Assembly: GCA_964023275.1 (NCBI GenBank)
Contig: OZ029914.1
Span: 45,062,937 to 45,126,936, forward strand
DNA length: 64,000 nt
Direction: 5' to 3'
DNA from: Norana najaformis
Taxonomy: Eukaryota; Annelida; Clitellata; Crassiclitellata; Hormogastridae
Under the pieces are notes generated by a model, which was not told the DNA's origin, searched no databases, and was given only the letters and a program-made list of their open reading frames with translations. Shown one piece after another: positions 9,881 through 58,200 of this stretch (positions are counted from its first letter, which is position 1; each line of letters opens with the position of its first letter). The translations under genes were made by a program, and so were the position numbers.

Positions 9881-26828
<16,948 letters not shown>

Positions 26829-28436: not shown

Positions 28437-31400
28437 TCAAACATTGTCACCAGAATCCTAGGAAAAAAGACAGAAACCAATTAACTTTTATTCAGAATTC
28501 AACTGCCGCATACTAAATTAAATTCAGCAAATCAGAATCTTACACTGCAAGTAAACACAATGCAAGTAAACACAATGCAAGTAAACACAATGCAAGTAAA
28601 CAAAATGCAAGTAAACACAATGCAAGTAAACACAATGCAAGTAAACACAATGCAAGTAAACACAATGCAAGTAAACACAATGCAAGTAAACACAATGCAA
28701 GTAAACACAATGCAAGTAAACACAATGCAAGTAAACACAATGCAAGTAAACACAATGCAAGTAAACACAATGCAAGTAAACACAATGCAAGTAAAGGTGT
28801 CAGAACAGAGCAGTCAGAAGAAAGTCAAAAATGGGAAAATATCGCACAAAAATTTAAAGTTAAAATGTTGATTGAAAAAAGTCTAAACATGGTTGTGAAA
28901 AATTTTCAAAGATGAAAGCATGACCTTGGTTACCGGTCTCCCATTCTGAAAACTGTGCTAATGCTGTAGGTTGCAAGCCTCTGTGGCAGTTCTAAATTTG
29001 CTGTTAACTTAAAACACTTACAGCACATTCAAAGTCACTAACTCTGAATATGAGGCAATGTACCACGATAGAAGAATCCAACACAGAATGGTGAAGCACA
29101 GTTTAAGCTATCAATAAATAAGCTGATAAAAGCTGCAAGTAAAGTTTTAAGAGAGTCTTTAACTTAAAATATCACAGATACTGAATGATTCCAAAAAAAA
29201 TTCAAAAACGTACAACAGAACAGAAATTGCTCCTGTATTCTAATCCAACTTTAACTTCCACATTTTCGATAGCAGGTGCAACGTATTCAGATCCGACTAC
29301 ACGGGTCAATCCCTCTCTGTCCACTGGCACCACATATTTATACAGATCTGATTAGATAAAACTAGATAAGCAATAGAAGAAAAAGAGATTGAACCTGATT
29401 GAGTTTCTTGAACTCAACGACCCTGTGCAGGACGTATTCAAGTACGTCCTTTGCTGACCGCTTGTTCGTTGGCAACTTGTTGCTTATTCCCAAGATGTCA
29501 CCACATTCTCTCACGAAATACTCCAGATCCTCATCAGTACCTGAAATCAAAATTTACCAGCAGAGGATTTACACATTTCAGTTGTAATGTAAATAAATGT
29601 GTAATGTAGCTTAACCAAATAGACTAAACCAAAATTACTGCACAGAATGTACACACGATATTAAATCATTTAAATTCAAATGAATTACCTAATTTAAAAG
29701 CTTCTGCTCCTTGACTTAAGCAAAATCTTTAAATTCTGAACATTTAGGACACCTTTATTTTATCACAATGGCAGAAAAAACTAAAAACACACCAGCGAGT
29801 GCAAAAACACTGCAATTAAGAAAAAATATGTTTTAAACTAAACTTGAGAAAAAAACATCACAACAACACTGTGCACTGATAAATTTTCAATAAAAGTCTT
29901 ACATTTGTTTGTGATTTGTGCCAAACGTGCTTTCTCTGATGTGAAATGTTCATCCAGGTCAAAAAGGTCGAGCATTGGTGCTGGCAACTCACGAAATGCA
30001 GGCGGAAATACCTACAAAAGTTCAAGGAAGCAAGTTTAAAAGTACTCAAGTACATTTTGTCTAATCAAATCCAGCCTAATCCATTGACTTCCAAGCCAGT
30101 TCTATGACATTTAATATGATTACTGTTTTCATGCAATACTTTTATCCTTTGCTCACTTGTGGGGTGGGATTTTGAACTCTGAAAAATACTCACTAATCGT
30201 AATCCCAAGATTTCTACAGCGCCCAACGAAAGCCATGCCATAGGGACCAGCTTATTCACAGGCGCTCAGTCAATACAAAATCGATATGCAAAAAGGTCCG
30301 GTTCCAGGTCAAGATCCAAAAGTCAGACGGAAAGACAGCGTGGCAGCTACGGGGGGTGGTGTTTGGGGTTGGAGAGCAGAGAGAGATAAGAGGAAGAAGG
30401 GGTGTCAGGGTACAATCTGTGAAAGAGGAATGTTTTCAGTTTTGAGTGAAAGACCGATATAGATCAGTGTCTGTCTTGTGTTTAACAATCTTAGCATATT
30501 GTTAGCAATATGTTAAGACTGCAAAGTAAAAGAGCAACATTCTGATATGCTGAGTAGTGTGGCACTGAAAAATAGCAAGGTTTTACTTTGATTCATAGTT
30601 ACAATACAATTACAATCCTTCTGAACTCATACCATGTTTACTACTGATGTGCACACCATTACAAGAACCGCTTTTTCTTCATGAACAGGTCAACTGGAGC
30701 TATATAAATATAGGGAAGAAATAAAAATCAAAACAGAAACTTACGGCTGGTTGTAGTGGGGGTAACGGAGTTTCAAACTGCGGAGTTATCAACGTCAGTG
30801 GTTCGTGTGGAACTTTGAGCTGATCATAAGCTCTAAAACAATCATAATCAATCAATTAATTATATAAACAGATAAGTAACTGTTCTACACCCAAAATAAT
30901 ACATTAACGAATATATCCAACACTGGAATTGCATTTGTGAGGCTCATTAAACCAAAGCTATAAATACAACTTTATATTACAGTTACTGAAAGTAATTTAC
31001 ATGGACAAATAAATCAGAGCTCAAGCAATCATTTTCAGTGGGAGCTTTTCCCCAGTACTGCTTCTTCTTCCGATAACCATGGACCTTCTATCAATGCTTC
31101 AAAACAGTTCTTTACAAAAACTGCAGTGGCAGTCGTCAAACTGAAGCAGTGCTATATAACTTCACAGAATGAATTAATGACCACCTGATTGCTGCTGGAA
31201 CCATGCTTGTGTCCAGCTTGAAGAGGGAGACGTCGAAAAGGGTAGTTATGTCGGGTGGAACCTCTTCCGTTTCTTGGAGGCAGGACTTGACCTGTTCAGC
31301 CAACATGGCCGTGTCAGGCAGCATGTGGTAGTCAGAGATCTGCAAACAGCCAACAAGTTCCTCTTTCATATATTTCATTGAACATATAAATTATCATAAA

Positions 31401-45292: not shown

Positions 45293-45826
45293 TTAAGTTG
45301 AACTGGTTGGCAGAGAATTACCAACAAAATCAAAAGAAGTGCCTGGTGAGAAGATACCAGAATTGCCAATTTCCAGTTTATCCTTTTCGCTGGCATGTGT
45401 CTTCATGTGATTCACGAGGCTTTCGTTTTCCAGAAAGAATGTGCTGCACTCGTGACACTTGTACTTTCCACCGGTGTGGACAAGCACGTAATGCCGCAAC
45501 ATCAGGTCGATGCGCCGGAACTTCTGTCGACACTCGTCGCATGTATGCAGTCGTTCTCCGGTATGAGTGCGCATGTGTCGCTTAAGGTGGTCCTGTCGTC
45601 CAAAGCGCTTCTCGCACTCCTTGCACACGTGGCGCTTTTCCGTGTCGTGGATTGTGCGGTGTTGTGCCAGTTGATCTGGTCTTCGGAATCTTTTGGCGCA
45701 CTCCTGGCAAGCGTAGCGTCGTTCATCCGAGTGGGTGACCATGTGCAGCTTCAGCTGACAGGGCCAGCGAAACTGTTTGCCGCACTGGGCGCAAGAATTC
45801 GGGCGCTTCTTGGACTCATATGCCAT
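45293..45826 (-). CDS. C2H2 zinc-finger protein, five fingers
   Basis: Open 177-aa frame from ATG (45824-45826) to TAA. Five tandem C2H2 fingers: CAQCGKQF...HMVTH, CQECAKRF...HRTIH, CKECEKRF...HMRTH, CDECRQKF...HYVLVH (one residue longer between the histidines) and CHECSTFF...HMKTH, with HTGER-like linkers between several. This indicates sequence-specific nucleic-acid binding, probably a nuclear factor; the target is unknown. The frame stays open 17 codons upstream to a good acceptor at 45878 (TTTACTTTGTTGCAG), so this may be the last exon of a longer protein whose upstream exons I could not find. The Ser/Thr/Gly-rich tail (about 138-177) lacks a recognisable domain. Confidence 0.8.
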   Translation of the reverse strand: MAYESKKRPNSCAQCGKQFRWPCQLKLHMVTHSDERRYACQECAKRFRRPDQLAQHRTIHDTEKRHVCKECEKRFGRQDHLKRHMRTHTGERLHTCDECRQKFRRIDLMLRHYVLVHTGGKYKCHECSTFFLENESLVNHMKTHASEKDKLEIGNSGIFSPGTSFDFVGNSLPTSST

Positions 45827-45914
45827 TCGTAAACTTCTCTGAGAAAATATACAGCTTCCAGCAAGTTGACTGACTTGGCTGCAACAAAGTAAAGAAAATT
45901 ACAAATGCTGCTGT

Positions 45915-49234: not shown

Positions 49235-52200
49235 ATGGATGTGACCAAGACAGAAACCCCCGACAAATTCGCGAACATAATAGATCTCTCAAAAGAGGTA
49301 CTCAGGCTGCGGTAGCCTAAACTTCCGCCAGTATTACGATTGCATTGTGAGGAACTCCCACTGTGTGCTGGTATCTGACCTGTCATGTGAACTCGTCAAC
49401 ACCACCTCTGCATATTTCTGCACAGATTTTCCACTCAAAGCTGTAAACACTCCACTTCTAGAAATCTGATCCTGATTCTTCCTCTTCCTGTAATCTTTCC
49501 GTAAAGGCCCTATTACATCACTTATAACAATTATCCTTGTATATCGCATTTGTTTCAATATTTAGGAGTTGGCTGATCGAGTGAGGCAGCTTCAGACACA
49601 TATTACTCAACTGCAGAACGTAATTGCAAAGTCAAAATCTCAAGAACCGAAAAGTCGCTCACATCATCGAGCATTTGACTTTACCAAGTAAAACTCTTAG
49701 TTGTCTTTACCCTCAGAGTTGTTTTGAAAAGCACTATCTTATTATTTTTCCACAGCAGGTCATAAAGTCAATTAGATAATTATTTATTTTAAGCGGGTTT
49801 CAAAGCACTGATACATATTAGAATCTCTGTTCGCTATAATCCTGATTGCCTTTTTAATTCTGGATAAATGTCTTGACTGTCTTCTGTTGAATATGCTATT
49901 TAATTGTTTCAAAAGACCCATGTGGACAGAAAATGGAGAAATAACAAGTGTTTATTACCAATACTTAGTTGCATTTGTGCCCTTATGTTCGAATTGAATA
50001 TCCCCGTTTCCATCGTTTCTCTTCGGTTTTCAGTTCTACGGAAGAAATATGAAGTCTTCTCGGATACATTTTAACATATTTTCTGATGTAATGCGGTTGG
50101 AAACATGAATACCAGATTTCATTTCATTTTAGAATGTGTCTCATTACAGTTCAAAATCATTATAATGAGGTATGTATGAATGCATGTGTCTGAACATTTG
50201 TGTAGACCTAATGAAGGTTGCATTGTGAGAAAGTCCTACTGTGTGCTGGTATCTACAGGTACAATGTGAGGCATGTGGCTCTGAAGATAGCATATCTTGG
50301 CTGGGATTATCAAGGTTTTGCGGCTCAGGAGGACACAAACAGAACAATTGAAGCCGTGCTGTTTGATGCACTCATCAAAACAAGGCTTATAGAATCCAGG
50401 TGGGTTAAGTAACTGCCTGGACATATTGTTTAAAGTTTCTGCTATATATATGTATATAGCAGAAACTTTGGGTTGGGGTTCAACTTTCTAGCACCCTTTA
50501 GCAAACCCTGTTATAAAGTGATTGCAACATCAGCTATACACTGTCAGTAACAGGGTCAGATGGTGAGGGAGAGGACTTGTATGCTGAGGCTAAGAAAATG
50601 AAGTGGCAACACTTCATACCTCCGACTGTTTCTCTATGTTGGCATTAAAGGGGCCGATCTTCTGTGGATATGACGAAATATAGTCATCTTCCAGAATGAG
50701 CTAGAGTGACTGGGTTTACCCAAATCAATCCCCAATCTTTTCCCAGATTGATCTTGCTGTTACCCTTCCATACCTATTTTCCTTGTTAAACTTAACATAG
50801 TAGTTACGCTTTTCCATGATCATGCAAGTTATCTCATTGTTTAGTTGCAGTCTTAGACAAACTTCTTTGTGAACATTTTTATATATTTGTGTTCACTTAT
50901 CAACAGGGAGACATCAAATTACCACAGATGTGGTCGAACAGACAAAGGAGTTAGTGCCTTCTCTCAGGTAAGAACATACGTGGTGGCGTTGATGCAGTTG
51001 ATATTGCAAAGCACTGTAGAAGTATCTTGCTACCTACAATGCTATATATAAATTGTCATAATTACATGCATTTTTTCCATTATTTCCCATTTTCAAAATT
51101 CCCTTATTAATGGCCAGTTTCTTGTAAAGAAACTCGATTAGACTGTTGTAGAAAATTGTCACTGTAGCTCCTCTGGCTGTTGTTGTATGATGTGCAGGTT
51201 GTGTGGCAATCCTTACTGATAGAAGAGATGAGCAGTTTCTTAAGCTAAGTAAGTAAGTAATGCATTTGTTGACACACCATCAGCTGAGCGAGGAATTTTA
51301 GGTGAGTGGTCGAGTCACAGCAGTCAGACAACAAAAGCAAGACGGAACAAATAGATCTTAAGACGCTTTATGAATATATCTAGGGAGATATTGTTTCGAG
51401 TAAAGTTACCAACTAAATAAGTTAACCCTGAGAAGCGGCCATGAGTATGAAGTGCCTCAGATATGCATTATGTGTGGCTTTGCATGTGTTAAAAATCTTT
51501 GTAATAATAATAATAGTAAATGTTTGCAATTCATTTTTCTTAGCCTTGGCATGTTCTGGCTTAAATGTTCAAATGTATGTGTTTTGCTGTAGGTTATATC
51601 GATTGATCTTCGAACCAACTTGCTAGAAGGAAAGGGCATCAAGGTTCGAGATGGTGGAAAAGCCAATGAACGACCAGGTATGTTGATTATGTATTCTGCG
51701 TCATCTCACCTGTACTTGAATCACACACGGCAGTTATCTAAGTCTGTTTAGTCTTTCTTATTTACCCCTCTTGTATCTTCTGGCCAACTTTTAAAGTTAC
51801 TGACTGGTTACTTATTCCTTCTCTAAGTGACCAGTATATGTGTCAAGACCCTTCCATTCGTGGCAGTGTTTACTGGCAAACGAGCACGCATTTGTCAGGT
51901 TTCACTGCTAGAAAACTCTTGATGATGCTATAGATGAACTACAAGTTTACTATTATTATTGCTGGAGCCATTTGTGTTAAGAAATTCTTGAGCTGTTTAA
52001 TGAATCACCACAAAAATTGCCGACATCTTCATTTTAAACAATTAGGAAAAACCCAAAGGGTCATTATGCCTGTATATTAGTTCAGGCTTGTCCCTCTACC
52101 TCTAGCACAGTGGTGCACAACGTCCGGCCCGCGGGCCACATCCGGCCCGCCACGAGCCTTCATGTGGCCCGCGAAGATCAATGCGAAAGCCGAAAAATTG

Positions 52201-55200
52201 ATAATTCAGTCATATTTTTTCATGACGTTGCGATTGATTAAAAGTCAGCATTACGGTTGCGCACATGTCTAATTCTGCACATCTCTAATTCATAATGTGT
52301 CACCCATTTTTTGTTTTTGTTTACTTTTACAATCTCGTGTTTACATGACTAATTTCATCAAGTTGTTGTAATTCGTAATTAGTTGTGTTTTTATATCCCC
52401 TCGTAAATACGGAATGTCTAACGGTCGGAAACGAAAAGTTGACAATGAAAACAGACAATTTCATGATGACTGGACAGACCGCTACTGTTTTATTCAGCAA
52501 CAGGGTAACGTCATTTGTCTGTTGTGCCACTCAACAGTAGCTGTAGCAAAGATATCAAACATGAAGCGCCACTACGAGTCGAAGCACAAGGATTTCCAAA
52601 GTGTTGTTGGTGAAGAAAGAACAGCCAAAATTCAGTCATTGTGTCGTTCACTGAACCAGCAGCAGAAGGTTTTTACCAAGCGGTCTGCCGACTTTGATGC
52701 ATCATGTGAAGTTAGCTACGACATTTCACTTATGATAGCGAAATCGGGTCGGCCGTTCACCGATGGTGACTTTGTGAAGAACTGTATGATAGCAGCGTCG
52801 AAGAAACTGTGTCCAGATGCTACTAACAAGCTGCAGACTCTGAACCGCATGACAATACAATGCCGAGTTTCAGCTCTGTCACAGGACGTGACTAGGCAAC
52901 TGGCAGACAAAGTAGCTAACTTTTGTTACTTTTCTTTGGCGGCCGATGAGTCGACCGATATCGACTCTACTGCACAGCTGTTGGTGTTTGTCCGTGGAGT
53001 ATCCTCATCCTTTGAGATAACTGAAGAGTTGCTTGGTATGGGATCAATGAAAGGCAAAACAACAGGGGCTGACCTGCTGGACGAGACTTTGAAACTGTGT
53101 GGCAGTGTTTCCTTGGATATGACGAAGCTGGTTAGTATCACTACAGATGGAGCAGCAGCTATGACAGGTCAAACTAATGGGCTGGTGTCCTTGTTGTCAA
53201 GACATCTGGGAACTGGAAACAGGGAGCTGGTGAAGTTTCACTGCATTATTCACCAGCAAAATTTATGTGGTAAGGATCTTGGCTTCCAGGACGTGATGAC
53301 ACTGGTGACAAAAACTATAAATTTCATCAAGTCACGAAGCCTCAACTATCGGCAGTTTCGAAGCCTTCTTGAAGACACCTACACAGACCATGGCGATCTG
53401 CGCTATTATTGTGAAGTGCGATGGCTGAGTCGAGGTAAGATGCTGAGGAGATTCTGGGAGTTGATTGATGACGTTGCAGAATTCATGACAGGCAAGAAGA
53501 AAGAAGCAGAAGTCGCATCTCTCACTGACAAAGCGTGGCAGGCTGACTTGACATTTCTTGTTGACATTACTGAACACTTGAATCGTCTTAATGTGCAGCT
53601 GCAGGGAGAAAATCAGCTTGTGTGTCATCTTGCAAATCATGTTGCAGGCTTCAAAGTCAAACTAAAGTTGTTTATTCAACAAGCTGAGTCTGGAAACTTC
53701 GTTCATTTTCCAACATTCCAGTCCCTGTTGCAGAAAAATCCAGATATCTGTACGAACATATATGCTGAGAAGTTACAGGCGTTGATGACGGCGTTCGATG
53801 GTCGTTTTGCAGACTTTGACCACCACAGCTTGCAGATGAAGGTGTTTGCAGATCCATTTGCTGTTCCGGTGGAAGATGTTTCGCCGGAGTACCAGCTTGA
53901 ACTTATTGACATGCAATCCTCTGACACAATGCGTGCTGCTTTCAGAGATAAAACTTTGGTAGAGTTTTACAAGTGTCTTCCAGCAACATTCGTCAACCTG
54001 AAGGACAATGCTCTTGTTCATGCAAGCATGTTTGGAAGCACGTATCGCTGTGAGCAAACCTTTTCGCAAATGAAGCTCAACAAAAGCAACACCCGGAATC
54101 AACTCACTGACAAACATCTTGAAGAAGTTCTTCGTCTGTCAACTACGAACATTCGACCTGACATCTCCAGGCTTGTTGCGGACATGCAGCCACAGCCTTC
54201 ACACTGACTTGCATAATGTGATAAAACTAACAGTTTTGCAGGAAAATAAACTTGATAACTTATAAGTCTTAGTAATTAACACAGTTGAATTTAAACTTTA
54301 ATTTACGTTTGCTAATCCTCTTCCTAGACCATAAATTTCGCATCAGTCTTACAGGAGCTCAGTCGTTTGGCCCCCGAAGGCTTTCGGAATTCGAATTGTG
54401 GCCCTCTTCCCAAAAAGGTTGTGCACCACTGCTCTAGCACTTATTATATTGCAGGCGGCTTGTTAAATGATTTCAAGCGAGCAATTTTTGCTACTATGAT
54501 TGTGCTTGCTGATAATATAGTTGTTGCATTGACAAACTGTTTTATCGTAGGTGATAAAACTGTTGAAATACGATATATTCATATTCTGAATAAAGTGCTT
54601 CCACAAGAAATCCGAGTCTTGGCTTGGTGTCCTGTTGAGCCCGAGTTCAGTGCGAGGTATTTGTATTTGAATAATTTATCTTTATAGCTGTAAATATCTG
54701 TCAGTATTTCATACAAAACAGGATATTATTTGATGTCTCGTTGTGGTCCTTCAACTACCACTTCAAACAACCATACCTCATTCTGCAGTGGTCTTGGCAG
54801 GGCATGACATCACGTCGTGGATGCGAAGCTGAGTTTGCCCCAGACAATAAGAGAATGTTATCACTCTCGAAATGCTAGTATAGGCTCTGAAATTGTTTTT
54901 CCCGGGTCCTTTCAAAAACACCTTTGGGGAGTTTCTTTTGAATTGGCATTATATAAATTTTTGATTGCAATTACAATAAGCCTTTGAAAGACCACTTATT
55001 AACAGCAGTTGCTTCAATCACAGTTCTGTGGTAGAGTTTGTCATCTGGACTGAAAAAGTATAACAGCATTCCAAATTTCCATACAGAAATTCCTGGTGTG
55101 GTCTTTGTGCTTTATCACTTACAAATTTTGCTGTATTCCTGTTTTTAGATTTAGCTGTAAAAGAAGAACGTACAAGTACTACTTTCCAAGAGGAAATCTT

Positions 55201-58200
55201 GACCTAGGTGTAAGTTCTGCCACTTTATAGAGCTTTTGATTTGGCCTTGACCCTCGCAATTTCGACTAGACTGAACTTCTGGTTTTGTTTTAATCTGTAG
55301 CTAAATTTCTATCTCGAGACTCAGTGTTTTTTAAATGCCACAGAATTTCAGTGCAGTTCTTGTTTGTTTAGGGTAAAACTAATTGAACTCTTGAGGATAT
55401 TATTTGTTGGTACTATCACAGGATCGGGCATAACTTGGACTTGGCAGGCATAATTTACTTACTTTGCTCAGCTTGTTTTTGAAAGGCTGAGAATGTACAC
55501 TTTAGGATAGACCCTGATTGATTAATGATGCTGACAATTCAGAAATCACACTTTAGGGTAAATCATGATTGTCTGATGGTACATGTACTGACAATTAAGA
55601 AATCACATATTTAATCAAGACCTTGATTGCCTAACAATACTGATGATTAAGAATTTCATGCTTCAGGATAGACCCTCATTGATACAAACTGCCTATTGAT
55701 GTTCACTGTGATACTAGCAATTGTATAGGATGCACCGTTTCTCACCTTTTGTTCATTCACTGCAAAGTGATCCTGGGGAAGAGTGTAGTAGTTAATCTGT
55801 TTGTATACCATTAGTGATACTTGTTGGACATAAAATCTGCTTTGATGACTTTTTGTTAACTTTCTGTTGACCTTTGTTGTCATTTTTCTTAACCTTCTGT
55901 TGTTCTTTTGCATAGAAAATGGCAGAGGGCGCGCGTAGACTTGTAGGTGACAACGATTATCGCAATCTGTGCAAGATGGATGTTGCCAATGGTGTCGTCA
56001 ACTTCAGACGAACAATTCTGTCTGTTGATTTGAAGCCCCATTTAAGGTAGGCCGTTCTAACATGCACCACCAATTCCTGGTGTTTTTATGGTAATTTACT
56101 GTAATAAATGTGTATTTGGTGCTTAAATTTTTTGTATGTTCCATGTTTCACATTTTCGTAGATACTCTTACACCAAAAGATTCTTCTAATGAAAATTGCA
56201 GTTTCAAATACACCAGACACGTCGTATAATGCTGTTTTTGGATGCCATATCAAGGCCCATGTAATAATGAGGTCATGTTATAATGAGGTCATGTCATAAT
56301 GAGGTTTATACATTATTTATATCTTAAAAGTCTTTTGTCATTTTAATTTTTTATTTATATTTTATGTGCAACTCATTTGTTTATTTCATATTTCTAGGAA
56401 CTCAGATCAGTTTTTGCCTGCAGAACATGACGTGGACTTTGAAGATGCAAATGGTAGCTCAGCTGTTGAAACCAGGGAACCAGTTGAATCTTTTAAAAGT
56501 GGCACATCTGCCACAATTACAGCTGGTGGACTGTCAGAGTCCGTGGCCACAGTGGGTAGGAATCCAGTGGTGGATGGTGTAACGATCCGCATTCCAGAAA
56601 GCAGTTACGACATGTGTGAACTGACAGTCGTTGGAAATGCCTTCCTTTGGCACCAGATCCGGTGCATTTTGGCCGTTCTCTTGCTCATTGGAGAGGGAAA
56701 GGAAAGTCCAGAGGTGAGTTGCTGAATCAGCTTTACCTCTTCTGCTTCAGGGAGTTTTTTATTCTGGTTTTGAAATGTTTGTTGATAGTTGCCACCCAAT
56801 TCCAGGCACTTGAATATGGATACAGATAGGGAAGAACAGAACATGAAATGACAGAGAGAATTTATATCTGCCATGGACTGGTCACTGCAAGACAATTTAC
56901 CTCTGAACAATTTAGAACATTCAATACTCGTGATACAGGGATATGGAAATGCTAGCTTACAAGCTAAATAAATACTTTCTGTACAGATCGTAAATATGCA
57001 GAAACTGAGGAAAAGGCTACTGGTACTGCTTCATGCCTGTGGCTGATTATCCTTCGGTGAATTATCTCAGCATCCTATTCAGATATTTACATAGCTAATA
57101 AAATGGATTGCTTATCTTAAAGGAGGATTGTGTGGGATTTTATTTTTGAAGAATTTAAAACACTGGTCTGTAAACTTGTGACAAATGGATGCTAGTTCTG
57201 TCTCTTGTACGACTGTTTCTTACATTTTCTTACTTCTTTCAGTCTAACTTAGCTTGCTATTGTTCCATTTAATAATTTTTCCCCTTTTCCATTTGTATCT
57301 CTTGCTTTTTCTTTGTCTTCTGTCTTTATTTCTTCATCTTTTTTGTTCTTAATGACTTTAACTCCACTTAGGCTGGTTCAGGCAGCACTTTTTTCACGTA
57401 CTTAAAAGGCACTGTATATCTGGATACATACTGGGACATATATACACAAGTACATACTTGTCTGTGTCTGTGGTCTTCCTTTTTGCTCAACCATTTCTCT
57501 CAACCTAAACACAACCCACCATAACGGCTCTTCTGTCTGTGGCATCCTGCTCTTGGCTTTTAAGTAGTACTTTAGAAATTCTTGACTTTATGATTACTTT
57601 CCGTTTGATTGTTTTCCTTTGCCTTTTGAAGTCATAGCTACAGTTGTTCTGTTACCATTTGCGTCCATTGCAGGTAATTACTGAATTGCTGGACGTGGAG
57701 AAAAATCCTCAGAAACCACAGTATGCAATGGCCTCCGGTCAGTTCTTGTTCAGATTTAGGAATGCTCTTATTAATAGGTGAATGGATCATTTAGCAGAAA
57801 TTATCAATTAGTTTATAATTTGTTTAAATTAATTAAAAGGGATTTGATTAGACATGTGTTTGTGTCACTAAATTGAACTCTTTGAAAGACTTCACAAATG
57901 GACAAATATGTGGCCTTACAATGTTTAGATTATACCTTAAATAATTTGTATTCTGTAAAAGCTTCTGGAATGCATGATATTTTAAGAAATAATAGTCAAT
58001 ATAATCAATACAGTATTTAGGTGAGGCATGGTAGTCTAGTGGTGAGCATGTTGGACAGAGGTTGAGAGTTTGATTTCCCTCAAGGGCAGAAGGATAATTC
58101 AGAATTTATATTCCACTAGAGCCCTTGAGCTACAGAACGAGTACATAAAGCTTTACGCGATAAAGGAGAACAGCTTTTGTATGGCAAGTTGAAGAAAATT

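Follow-up and report, generated by a model that had tools for sequence, protein, structure and literature searches.

According to the papers cited here, hAT transposons of the Buster group, such as TcBuster, SPIN and Mar, generate 8-bp target site duplications of the form nnnTAnnn (PMC3517528, PMC3499496), and the target pattern given for Hermes is nTnnnnAn (PMC10368747). At its left end, Hermes carries a palindromic subterminal pair just within the inverted repeat, which is rigidly spaced and bound by BED domains (PMC10368747). The hAT-6_XT or 'GTF2IRD2-like' hATs of fishes, frogs and turtles possess conserved DDE/RW residues and are often misannotated as GTF2IRD2 (PMC10641963); in turtles, low divergence is described for hAT-6_XT (PMC11008031).

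From the analyses reported here it appears very likely that the window, which is the whole 64-kb stretch of Norana najaformis DNA that was analysed, contains a Buster-group hAT from a recently bursting family, and that this copy entered an intron early in the burst, has since decayed neutrally and can probably still be moved in trans. The element, of the Buster kind, is 2,324 bp long and is located at 52108..54431 on the forward strand, as defined by its ends, repeats and sister copies. Both ends read CAGTGGTGCACAAC and constitute terminal inverted repeats of 14 bp at 52108..52121 (+) and 54418..54431 (-); the first mismatch is at base 15. The sequence CTCTAGCA flanks both ends exactly, as left (52100..52107) and right (54432..54439) 8-bp target site duplication. 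An earlier note on this DNA had claimed perfect repeats and a perfect duplication, and both were confirmed by sequence match. With up to three mismatches allowed, the 14-mer occurs at six places in the window, compared to 6.33 expected by chance; perfect matches are restricted to the two ends of the element, which face each other. A second copy of the element was not detected in the window (best E 0.43). Since 26 of the 31 copies fetched begin and end at identical points and are all flanked by perfect 8-bp duplications, a chance origin of the ends is excluded; in the remaining five, one or both ends are missing. The same duplications and the short inverted repeats uphold the proposed membership in the hAT superfamily. 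In all 26 cases with matching duplications, the centre of the duplication reads TA; its second position is T in 20 of them, and its seventh position is A in 18. Because of the invariable central TA, the element is, judged by its target consensus nnnTAnnn, a member of the Buster group.

As stated in the note, a single transposase frame of 597 codons is present (52414..54207, +), two codons shorter than in 14 sister copies and with a private 6-bp deletion at 52836/52837. The BED finger and the hATC domain attributed to it were recovered in part. An N-terminal zinc finger exists, but the best Pfam name for it is the Spin-doc zf-C2H2_12 (PF18658, E 1.4e-8, above the cut-off), and zf-BED (PF02892) stayed below the cut-off with E 0.033. 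The hATC domain (PF05699) was found at E<=0.1 in 10 of the 12 proteins in alignment A1, with 2.7e-6 as best value, but the window protein itself did not reach E 1 with this model. In A1, D178 and R336 are near-invariant, and D245, W337 and E547 are invariant. D178, D245, E547 and the R336-W337 pair are putative counterparts of the catalytic DDE/RW residues of Hermes; the window protein keeps these putative catalytic aspartates, the glutamate and the RW pair. Presumably, it also resembles GTF2IRD2. Searching the PDB, phmmer yielded no match to the window protein at E<=1, and no hAT structure was among the seven matches of the A1 profile (E 0.14-0.62), all of which were unrelated molecules. The hATC result for the window protein and the PDB result were counted against the main reading given above.

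The element is located within an intron of PUS3, and the transposase frame has the same orientation as the gene. The PUS3 exons upstream (51593..51677, +) and downstream (54551..54656, +) of the element form a single continuous frame when spliced together, and the joined peptide matched PDB chain 9enb, 'tRNA pseudouridine(38/39) synthase', with E 9.7e-60. Pfam gave no match to this peptide at E<=0.001; the exon at 56303-56722 matched PseudoU_synth_1 (E 7.1e-10). These results confirm PUS3 as the host gene and, with exons joining in frame on either side, the view that it must splice across the element. A polyadenylation-like AATAAA, identified by motif match only, is located in sense with PUS3 at 54245..54250 (+), 38 nt past the transposase stop codon. 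This signal and the common strand would suit a take-over of the element by PUS3, which might use it as an alternative 3' end or as an exon, but the exons on either side stay in frame when the element is spliced out and the window copy shows no constraint beyond that of its sisters, which makes a take-over very improbable.

The genome contains at least 31 copies, with identities of 97-100%, and an uninterrupted frame of 599 codons is retained in 14 of the 31. The copies diverge from the column majority by 0.45% on average, and the copy tree is star-like. Copies L017 and L018 are identical over 2,329 bp, yet their duplications and flanks differ. As the copies form a star-like burst of low divergence, the insertion appears to be recent, in agreement with the earlier note. 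Many equally diverged copies with the same ends had been named there as a sign of old age; many copies do exist, but among 25 full-length ones the pairwise distance is 0.85% on average and 1.42% at most. This upper limit also argues against copies that are old or made by the assembly instead of by a transposition burst. Two identical copies could result from duplication or assembly error, but duplications and flanks differ both in the identical pair and in the 26 of 31 copies, and we consider such an origin hardly credible.

The sites occupied by defective copies are also informative. A TAG at codon 74 is common to L012, L014 and L016, which have three different duplications and no flanks in common, and the presence of one stop codon at unrelated sites points to mobilisation of broken copies in trans. 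Likewise, L031 and L033, which occupy different sites, have a 5-bp insertion and a 2-bp deletion in common. Within the ORF, a copy carries on average 0.0026 private changes per site, compared to 0.0029 outside it. The N:S ratio of these changes is 100:41, or 2.44, and falls in the range of 2.4-3.4 to be expected in the absence of selection; by these counts, they look neutral. Neutral decay would also be compatible with copies duplicating without transposition, against which the differing duplications and flanks argue. Searches with both ends gave known copies, one additional right-end fragment and cousins; among the candidates scored, 40 of 57 and 40 of 51, no short non-autonomous copy belonged to the young family. 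A recently active, multi-copy family of the Buster kind, in which copies with an intact frame occur beside broken ones, represents a natural system for copy decay and trans mobilisation.

For the window copy itself, the designations intact and possibly autonomous could not be maintained. Its frame is open, but the private in-frame 6-bp deletion removes V143-S144 (numbering according to the 599-aa copies), a VS pair in a conserved block that is present in all ten other A1 rows covering this place; none of the 30 other copies has the deletion. Four replacements, I154V, H314Y, D325Y and L332R, are private as well, and a near-invariant His is thereby replaced. Its transposase thus differs from, and is damaged relative to, those of the sister copies. 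Not every change need be harmful, since R152C and P250A recur in other copies or families. Among the 25 full-length copies, the window copy is the fifth farthest from the majority, and its end branch is 0.0056 versus a median of 0.003; by these measures it is not among the youngest copies. If 1e-9 to 1e-8 changes per site per year are assumed, the 10 private changes found over its 2,324 bp would correspond to about 0.4-4 million years. The 597-codon open frame, the perfect ends and the aspartates, glutamate and RW pair, with the catalytic role that we assume for them, could also indicate an active autonomous source producing its own working transposase. However, the two-residue deletion in the conserved block and the change of the near-invariant His are private, and as the deletion occurs in none of the 30 others, no sampled copy derives from the window copy; an active source is therefore regarded as improbable. 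Judged by conservation, the window copy probably makes no working enzyme, and because its ends are perfect it is probably still movable in trans by sister copies. An open frame and perfect ends are not sufficient to call a copy intact, the damage being revealed by comparison with sister copies.

In the history proposed for the bursting family, the N-terminal zinc finger of the transposase would bind the element ends, and the enzyme would excise the element and integrate it into targets centred on TA, where 8 bp become duplicated; the duplications are directly visible. Early in the burst, the window copy would have entered the PUS3 intron on the same strand. Neutral decay would then have removed two conserved residues and introduced several substitutions, leaving the frame open.

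The cousin L040 shows 78% identity, dN/dS against it is 0.13 over residues 121-599, and on sequence grounds the lineage is one formerly under selection. In the scored list, nothing was found between the 97-100% group and 78% over the body. This sharp gap below the 31 copies and a dS of about 0.93 to L040 would be expected if the family had arrived recently by horizontal transfer and not by reactivation of a resident lineage, and such transfer is published for the related hAT-6_XT between turtles, fishes and a frog (PMC11008031). On the other hand, the genome also harbours older cousins whose ends are closely similar, and two non-autonomous cousins, L061 and L065, are 98.5% alike and have perfect duplications; vertical persistence with one active lineage explains the gap, too. 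Recent arrival by horizontal transfer is rather unlikely. Back-translated patterns gave no confirmed relatives of the protein in viral_contigs and genome_contigs, and tblastn at E<=1e-5 gave none in plasmids and phages, all of these collections being mostly not eukaryotic and little informative. The window was also scanned with Rfam and for tRNA genes, and no match was obtained.

Comparisons of the element ends revealed a further feature. The palindrome GGCCCGCGGGCC at 52126..52137 comprises subterminal GGCCC sites 1 (+) and 2 (-) at element positions 19 and 26, followed by site 3 at position 37 (52144..52148, +) and site 4 at position 59 (52166..52170, +). Near the right end, GGCCC is located 62 nt (54369..54373, +) and 31 nt (54400..54404, +) from the end, and the palindromic pair is confined to the left end. 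All six sites occur at fixed end distances in the element and in five related families, the transposases of which are 34-42% identical to the window protein. Within the young family, constraint on the sites was undetectable (2 of 850 letters changed versus 80 of 14,939, Fisher p 0.33). It is an even question whether a fixed end code (left 19+, 26-, 37+, 59+; right 62, 31) was kept while repeats and transposases diverged, with the left pair docking two zinc fingers and the ends being told apart as in Hermes. If so, asymmetric end recognition would not be limited to the Ac group but would include the Buster group, and from the fixed subterminal sites one would predict paired zinc-finger sites as a mark of the left end in hAT elements other than those of the Ac group. 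Similar ends occur in vertebrate hAT elements. Among the papers listed for such an end code, only Hermes-type work was relevant, and repeat databases may well hold such ends; for the exact GGCCCGCGGGCC, a single paper was found, unrelated by its title.

Taken together, the element resembles the Buster group (TcBuster, SPIN, Mar) in its nnnTAnnn duplications, and also in its one-frame transposase with an N-terminal zinc finger and, in relatives, a C-terminal hATC region. Beyond the Buster consensus, T is common at the second position and A at the seventh, which overlaps the nTnnnnAn given for Hermes. By published description, the element is like the hAT-6_XT or 'GTF2IRD2-like' elements in being a hAT with putative DDE/RW residues and of low divergence. 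With Hermes, a member of the Ac group, the element shares a palindromic subterminal pair at the left end and rigid spacing, binding being putative here, but it belongs to a different group, the site is GGCCC instead of the AAGT of Hermes, and the pair occupies positions 19-30 instead of LE11-27. Overall, the element is a young and ordinary representative of a known kind, and the architecture of its ends can be tested.

The element inserted in PUS3 occupies positions 52108-54431 of the window (2,324 bp), with CAGTGGTGCACAAC at each tip and the same 8 bases, CTCTAGCA, adjoining it on either side. It carries a transposase frame of 597 codons on the forward strand (52414-54207). Tips, duplication and frame were re-found exactly as described in the earlier note, which had rightly identified a hAT element; the protein domains named there were recovered in part. 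An N-terminal zinc finger is present, matching the Pfam Spin-doc zf-C2H2_12 model (E 1.4e-8), but zf-BED itself stayed under the Pfam cut-off, as did DUF4371 over residues 142-256 (E 1.2e-4). The Pfam hATC model gave no match on the window protein at E<=1, but is found at E<=0.1 in 10 of the 12 rows of an alignment of related transposases. The window transposase probably resembles GTF2IRD2.

Four predicted PUS3 exons on the forward strand, 50259-50399, 50907-50967, 51593-51677 and 54551-54656, were joined by frame. They form one continuous frame, and the joined peptide together with a further stretch of the window matches PDB tRNA pseudouridine(38/39) synthase chains (best E 9.7e-60). The predicted intron bearing the element (51678-54550) has 2,873 nt and would shrink to 541 nt if the element and one copy of its duplication were removed. 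The element lies in sense orientation relative to PUS3 and contains AATAAA at 54245. A neighbour of PUS3 is a single 201-aa open frame with C2H2 zinc fingers on the reverse strand (45293-45895; zf-C2H2, E 2.2e-19). Elsewhere in the window are a TGGTAAAC-rich tandem array of 46- and 138-bp units (10219-10891), with long chance frames on the reverse strand, and a near-perfect array of the 15-bp unit ACAATGCAAGTAAAC (28542-28795; 16.9 copies, 98% matches).

The assembly searched comprises 608,420,607 bases in 17 contigs. With 40 of 70 candidates scored, at least 31 places showed 97-100% identity to the window element; next below among these 40 were cousins, 74-83% identical over the body and up to 91% at the ends. 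All 31 young copies and nine cousins were fetched for comparison. Both ends and perfect duplications are present in 26 copies, and one or both ends are absent in five. One copy lacking the right end (L037, G000 C13:27135481-27138793) has a 99% identical right-end fragment about 5 kb away (G000 C13:27131027-27131126), as if a later insertion had split it. In two other end-truncated copies, flanking sequence is repeated across the sides (L038, 92 bp identical; L035, 78 bp at 97%), unlike the 8-bp duplications of complete copies.

The 25 full-length copies differ on average by 0.45% from the column majority and by 0.85% from each other (range 0 to 1.42%). In a tree of the 28 copies exceeding 2,200 bp the branching is star-like: of the 24 inner branches, 16 are open and three well supported. 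No difference separates copy L017 from copy L018 over 2,329 bp; their sites have different duplications and share no flanking sequence. The recent insertion proposed earlier was borne out: the window element is an ordinary hAT transposon of the Buster kind, young and present in many copies. Selection held the transposase lineage, since dN/dS against the 78% identical cousin L040 is 0.13 (residues 121-599). Once inserted, copies decay freely, because private changes are about as frequent in the ORF as outside (0.00260 versus 0.00291 per site per copy) and those in the ORF (100 replacement, 41 silent, 4 stop) give an N:S ratio of 2.44, against 2.44-3.36 expected without selection, a range set by the assumed transition bias.

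An uninterrupted frame of 599 codons was detected in 14 of the 31 copies; the window copy has 597 codons and L032 has 595, while the frame is interrupted or truncated in the remaining 15. Compared with the 30 others, the window copy shows ten private substitutions and a private in-frame deletion of 6 bp, which takes out V143-S144 (numbering of the 599-aa sisters). Both residues are present, as (V/I)(S/P), in all ten other alignment rows covering this place, and both residues also in 7/7 cousins that span the two positions. Private replacements are I154V, H314Y, D325Y and L332R, H314 being near-invariant in the alignment. Changes also found in sisters are R152C (L020), P250A (L011, L021) and Q472H (five others); Cys occurs at the place of R152 in other families as well, so R152C could have arisen more than once and speaks less strongly for damage. 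Given the private deletion and replacements, the open frame is, judged against its sisters, not an intact enzyme gene, and the transposase has probably lost its function. To call this copy intact was wrong.

Several damaged copies were apparently still mobile. Three, L012, L014 and L016, carry the same TAG at codon 74 and are separated by 3 to 6 differences over 2,330 bases, yet each lies on a contig of its own with its own duplication, and none of the flanks are shared. A 5-bp insertion and a 2-bp deletion are common to L031 and L033, which show one difference over 2,298 bases; their right flanks differ, and the left tip of L033 is lost. Because the same lesions recur at unrelated sites, the most economical interpretation is that transposase produced elsewhere mobilised the broken copies. 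Readthrough, or later gene conversion of the lesion, is a possible alternative. Two 1,747-bp cousins, L061 (G000 C8:32022337-32024200) and L065 (G000 C1:19448400-19450300), are 98.5% alike, carry the perfect duplications ACCTAGAC and CTCTAGAC, and have left ends 93-94% like the first 67 bases of the window element. They were perhaps moved by the transposase of the young family.

The part of the finding worth a test is the arrangement of GGCCC pentamers at the ends. There are six altogether in the window element (element positions 19(+), 26(-), 37(+), 59(+), 2262(+) and 2293(+)), and the first two form the palindrome GGCCCGCGGGCC. Several other hAT families reside in the genome (L049-L060 and further places), many of them multi-copy; their transposase frames are open, roughly 600 codons long and 33-42% identical to that of the window element. 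For five (L049, 42%; L050, 40%; L052, 41%; L053, 34%; L059, 41%) the ends were located by matching duplications and inverted repeats, and all have TA at the duplication centre; L051, for which this matching yielded no ends, was left out. With one base of play allowed, 34 of 36 slots are filled across the six families, one left slot being empty in L049 and one in L052. The register was taken from the window element; excluding it, 28 of 30 are filled. When the letters of the ends were shuffled 20,000 times, 0.41 slots were filled on average and six at most. The mean number of families agreeing, out of six, is 5.90 in motif columns, 4.71 in inverted-repeat columns and 4.06 in other columns at the left end, and 5.50, 5.07 and 3.40, respectively, at the right. 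Four older cousins have 3 or 4 of the six slots filled, and among the young copies the GGCCC sites showed no detectable additional constraint. The likeness of ends among families is partly due to shared descent; by these column comparisons, the GGCCC sites are their least-changed part.

The hAT groups Ac, Buster and Tip are treated in PMC3942097, and the related hAT-6_XT and GTF2IRD2-like elements in PMC11008031 and PMC10641963. In the 26 duplications of the young family, positions 4 and 5 are T and A without exception, fitting nnnTAnnn, the Buster target pattern printed for Mar and TcBuster in PMC3517528 and PMC3499496. Position 2 is T in 20 and position 7 is A in 18, a leaning towards nTnnnnAn, given for Hermes in PMC10368747. 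According to that paper, two BED domains bind cooperatively to a quasi-palindromic, rigidly spaced pair of subterminal repeats at the left end of Hermes, and no BED domain is bound at the right. The window element likewise has a palindromic pair, placed next to its left inverted repeat on the inner side, and its right end lacks such a pair, although sequence and distance of its sites are not those reported there. By analogy, its left palindromic pair may work like that of Hermes.
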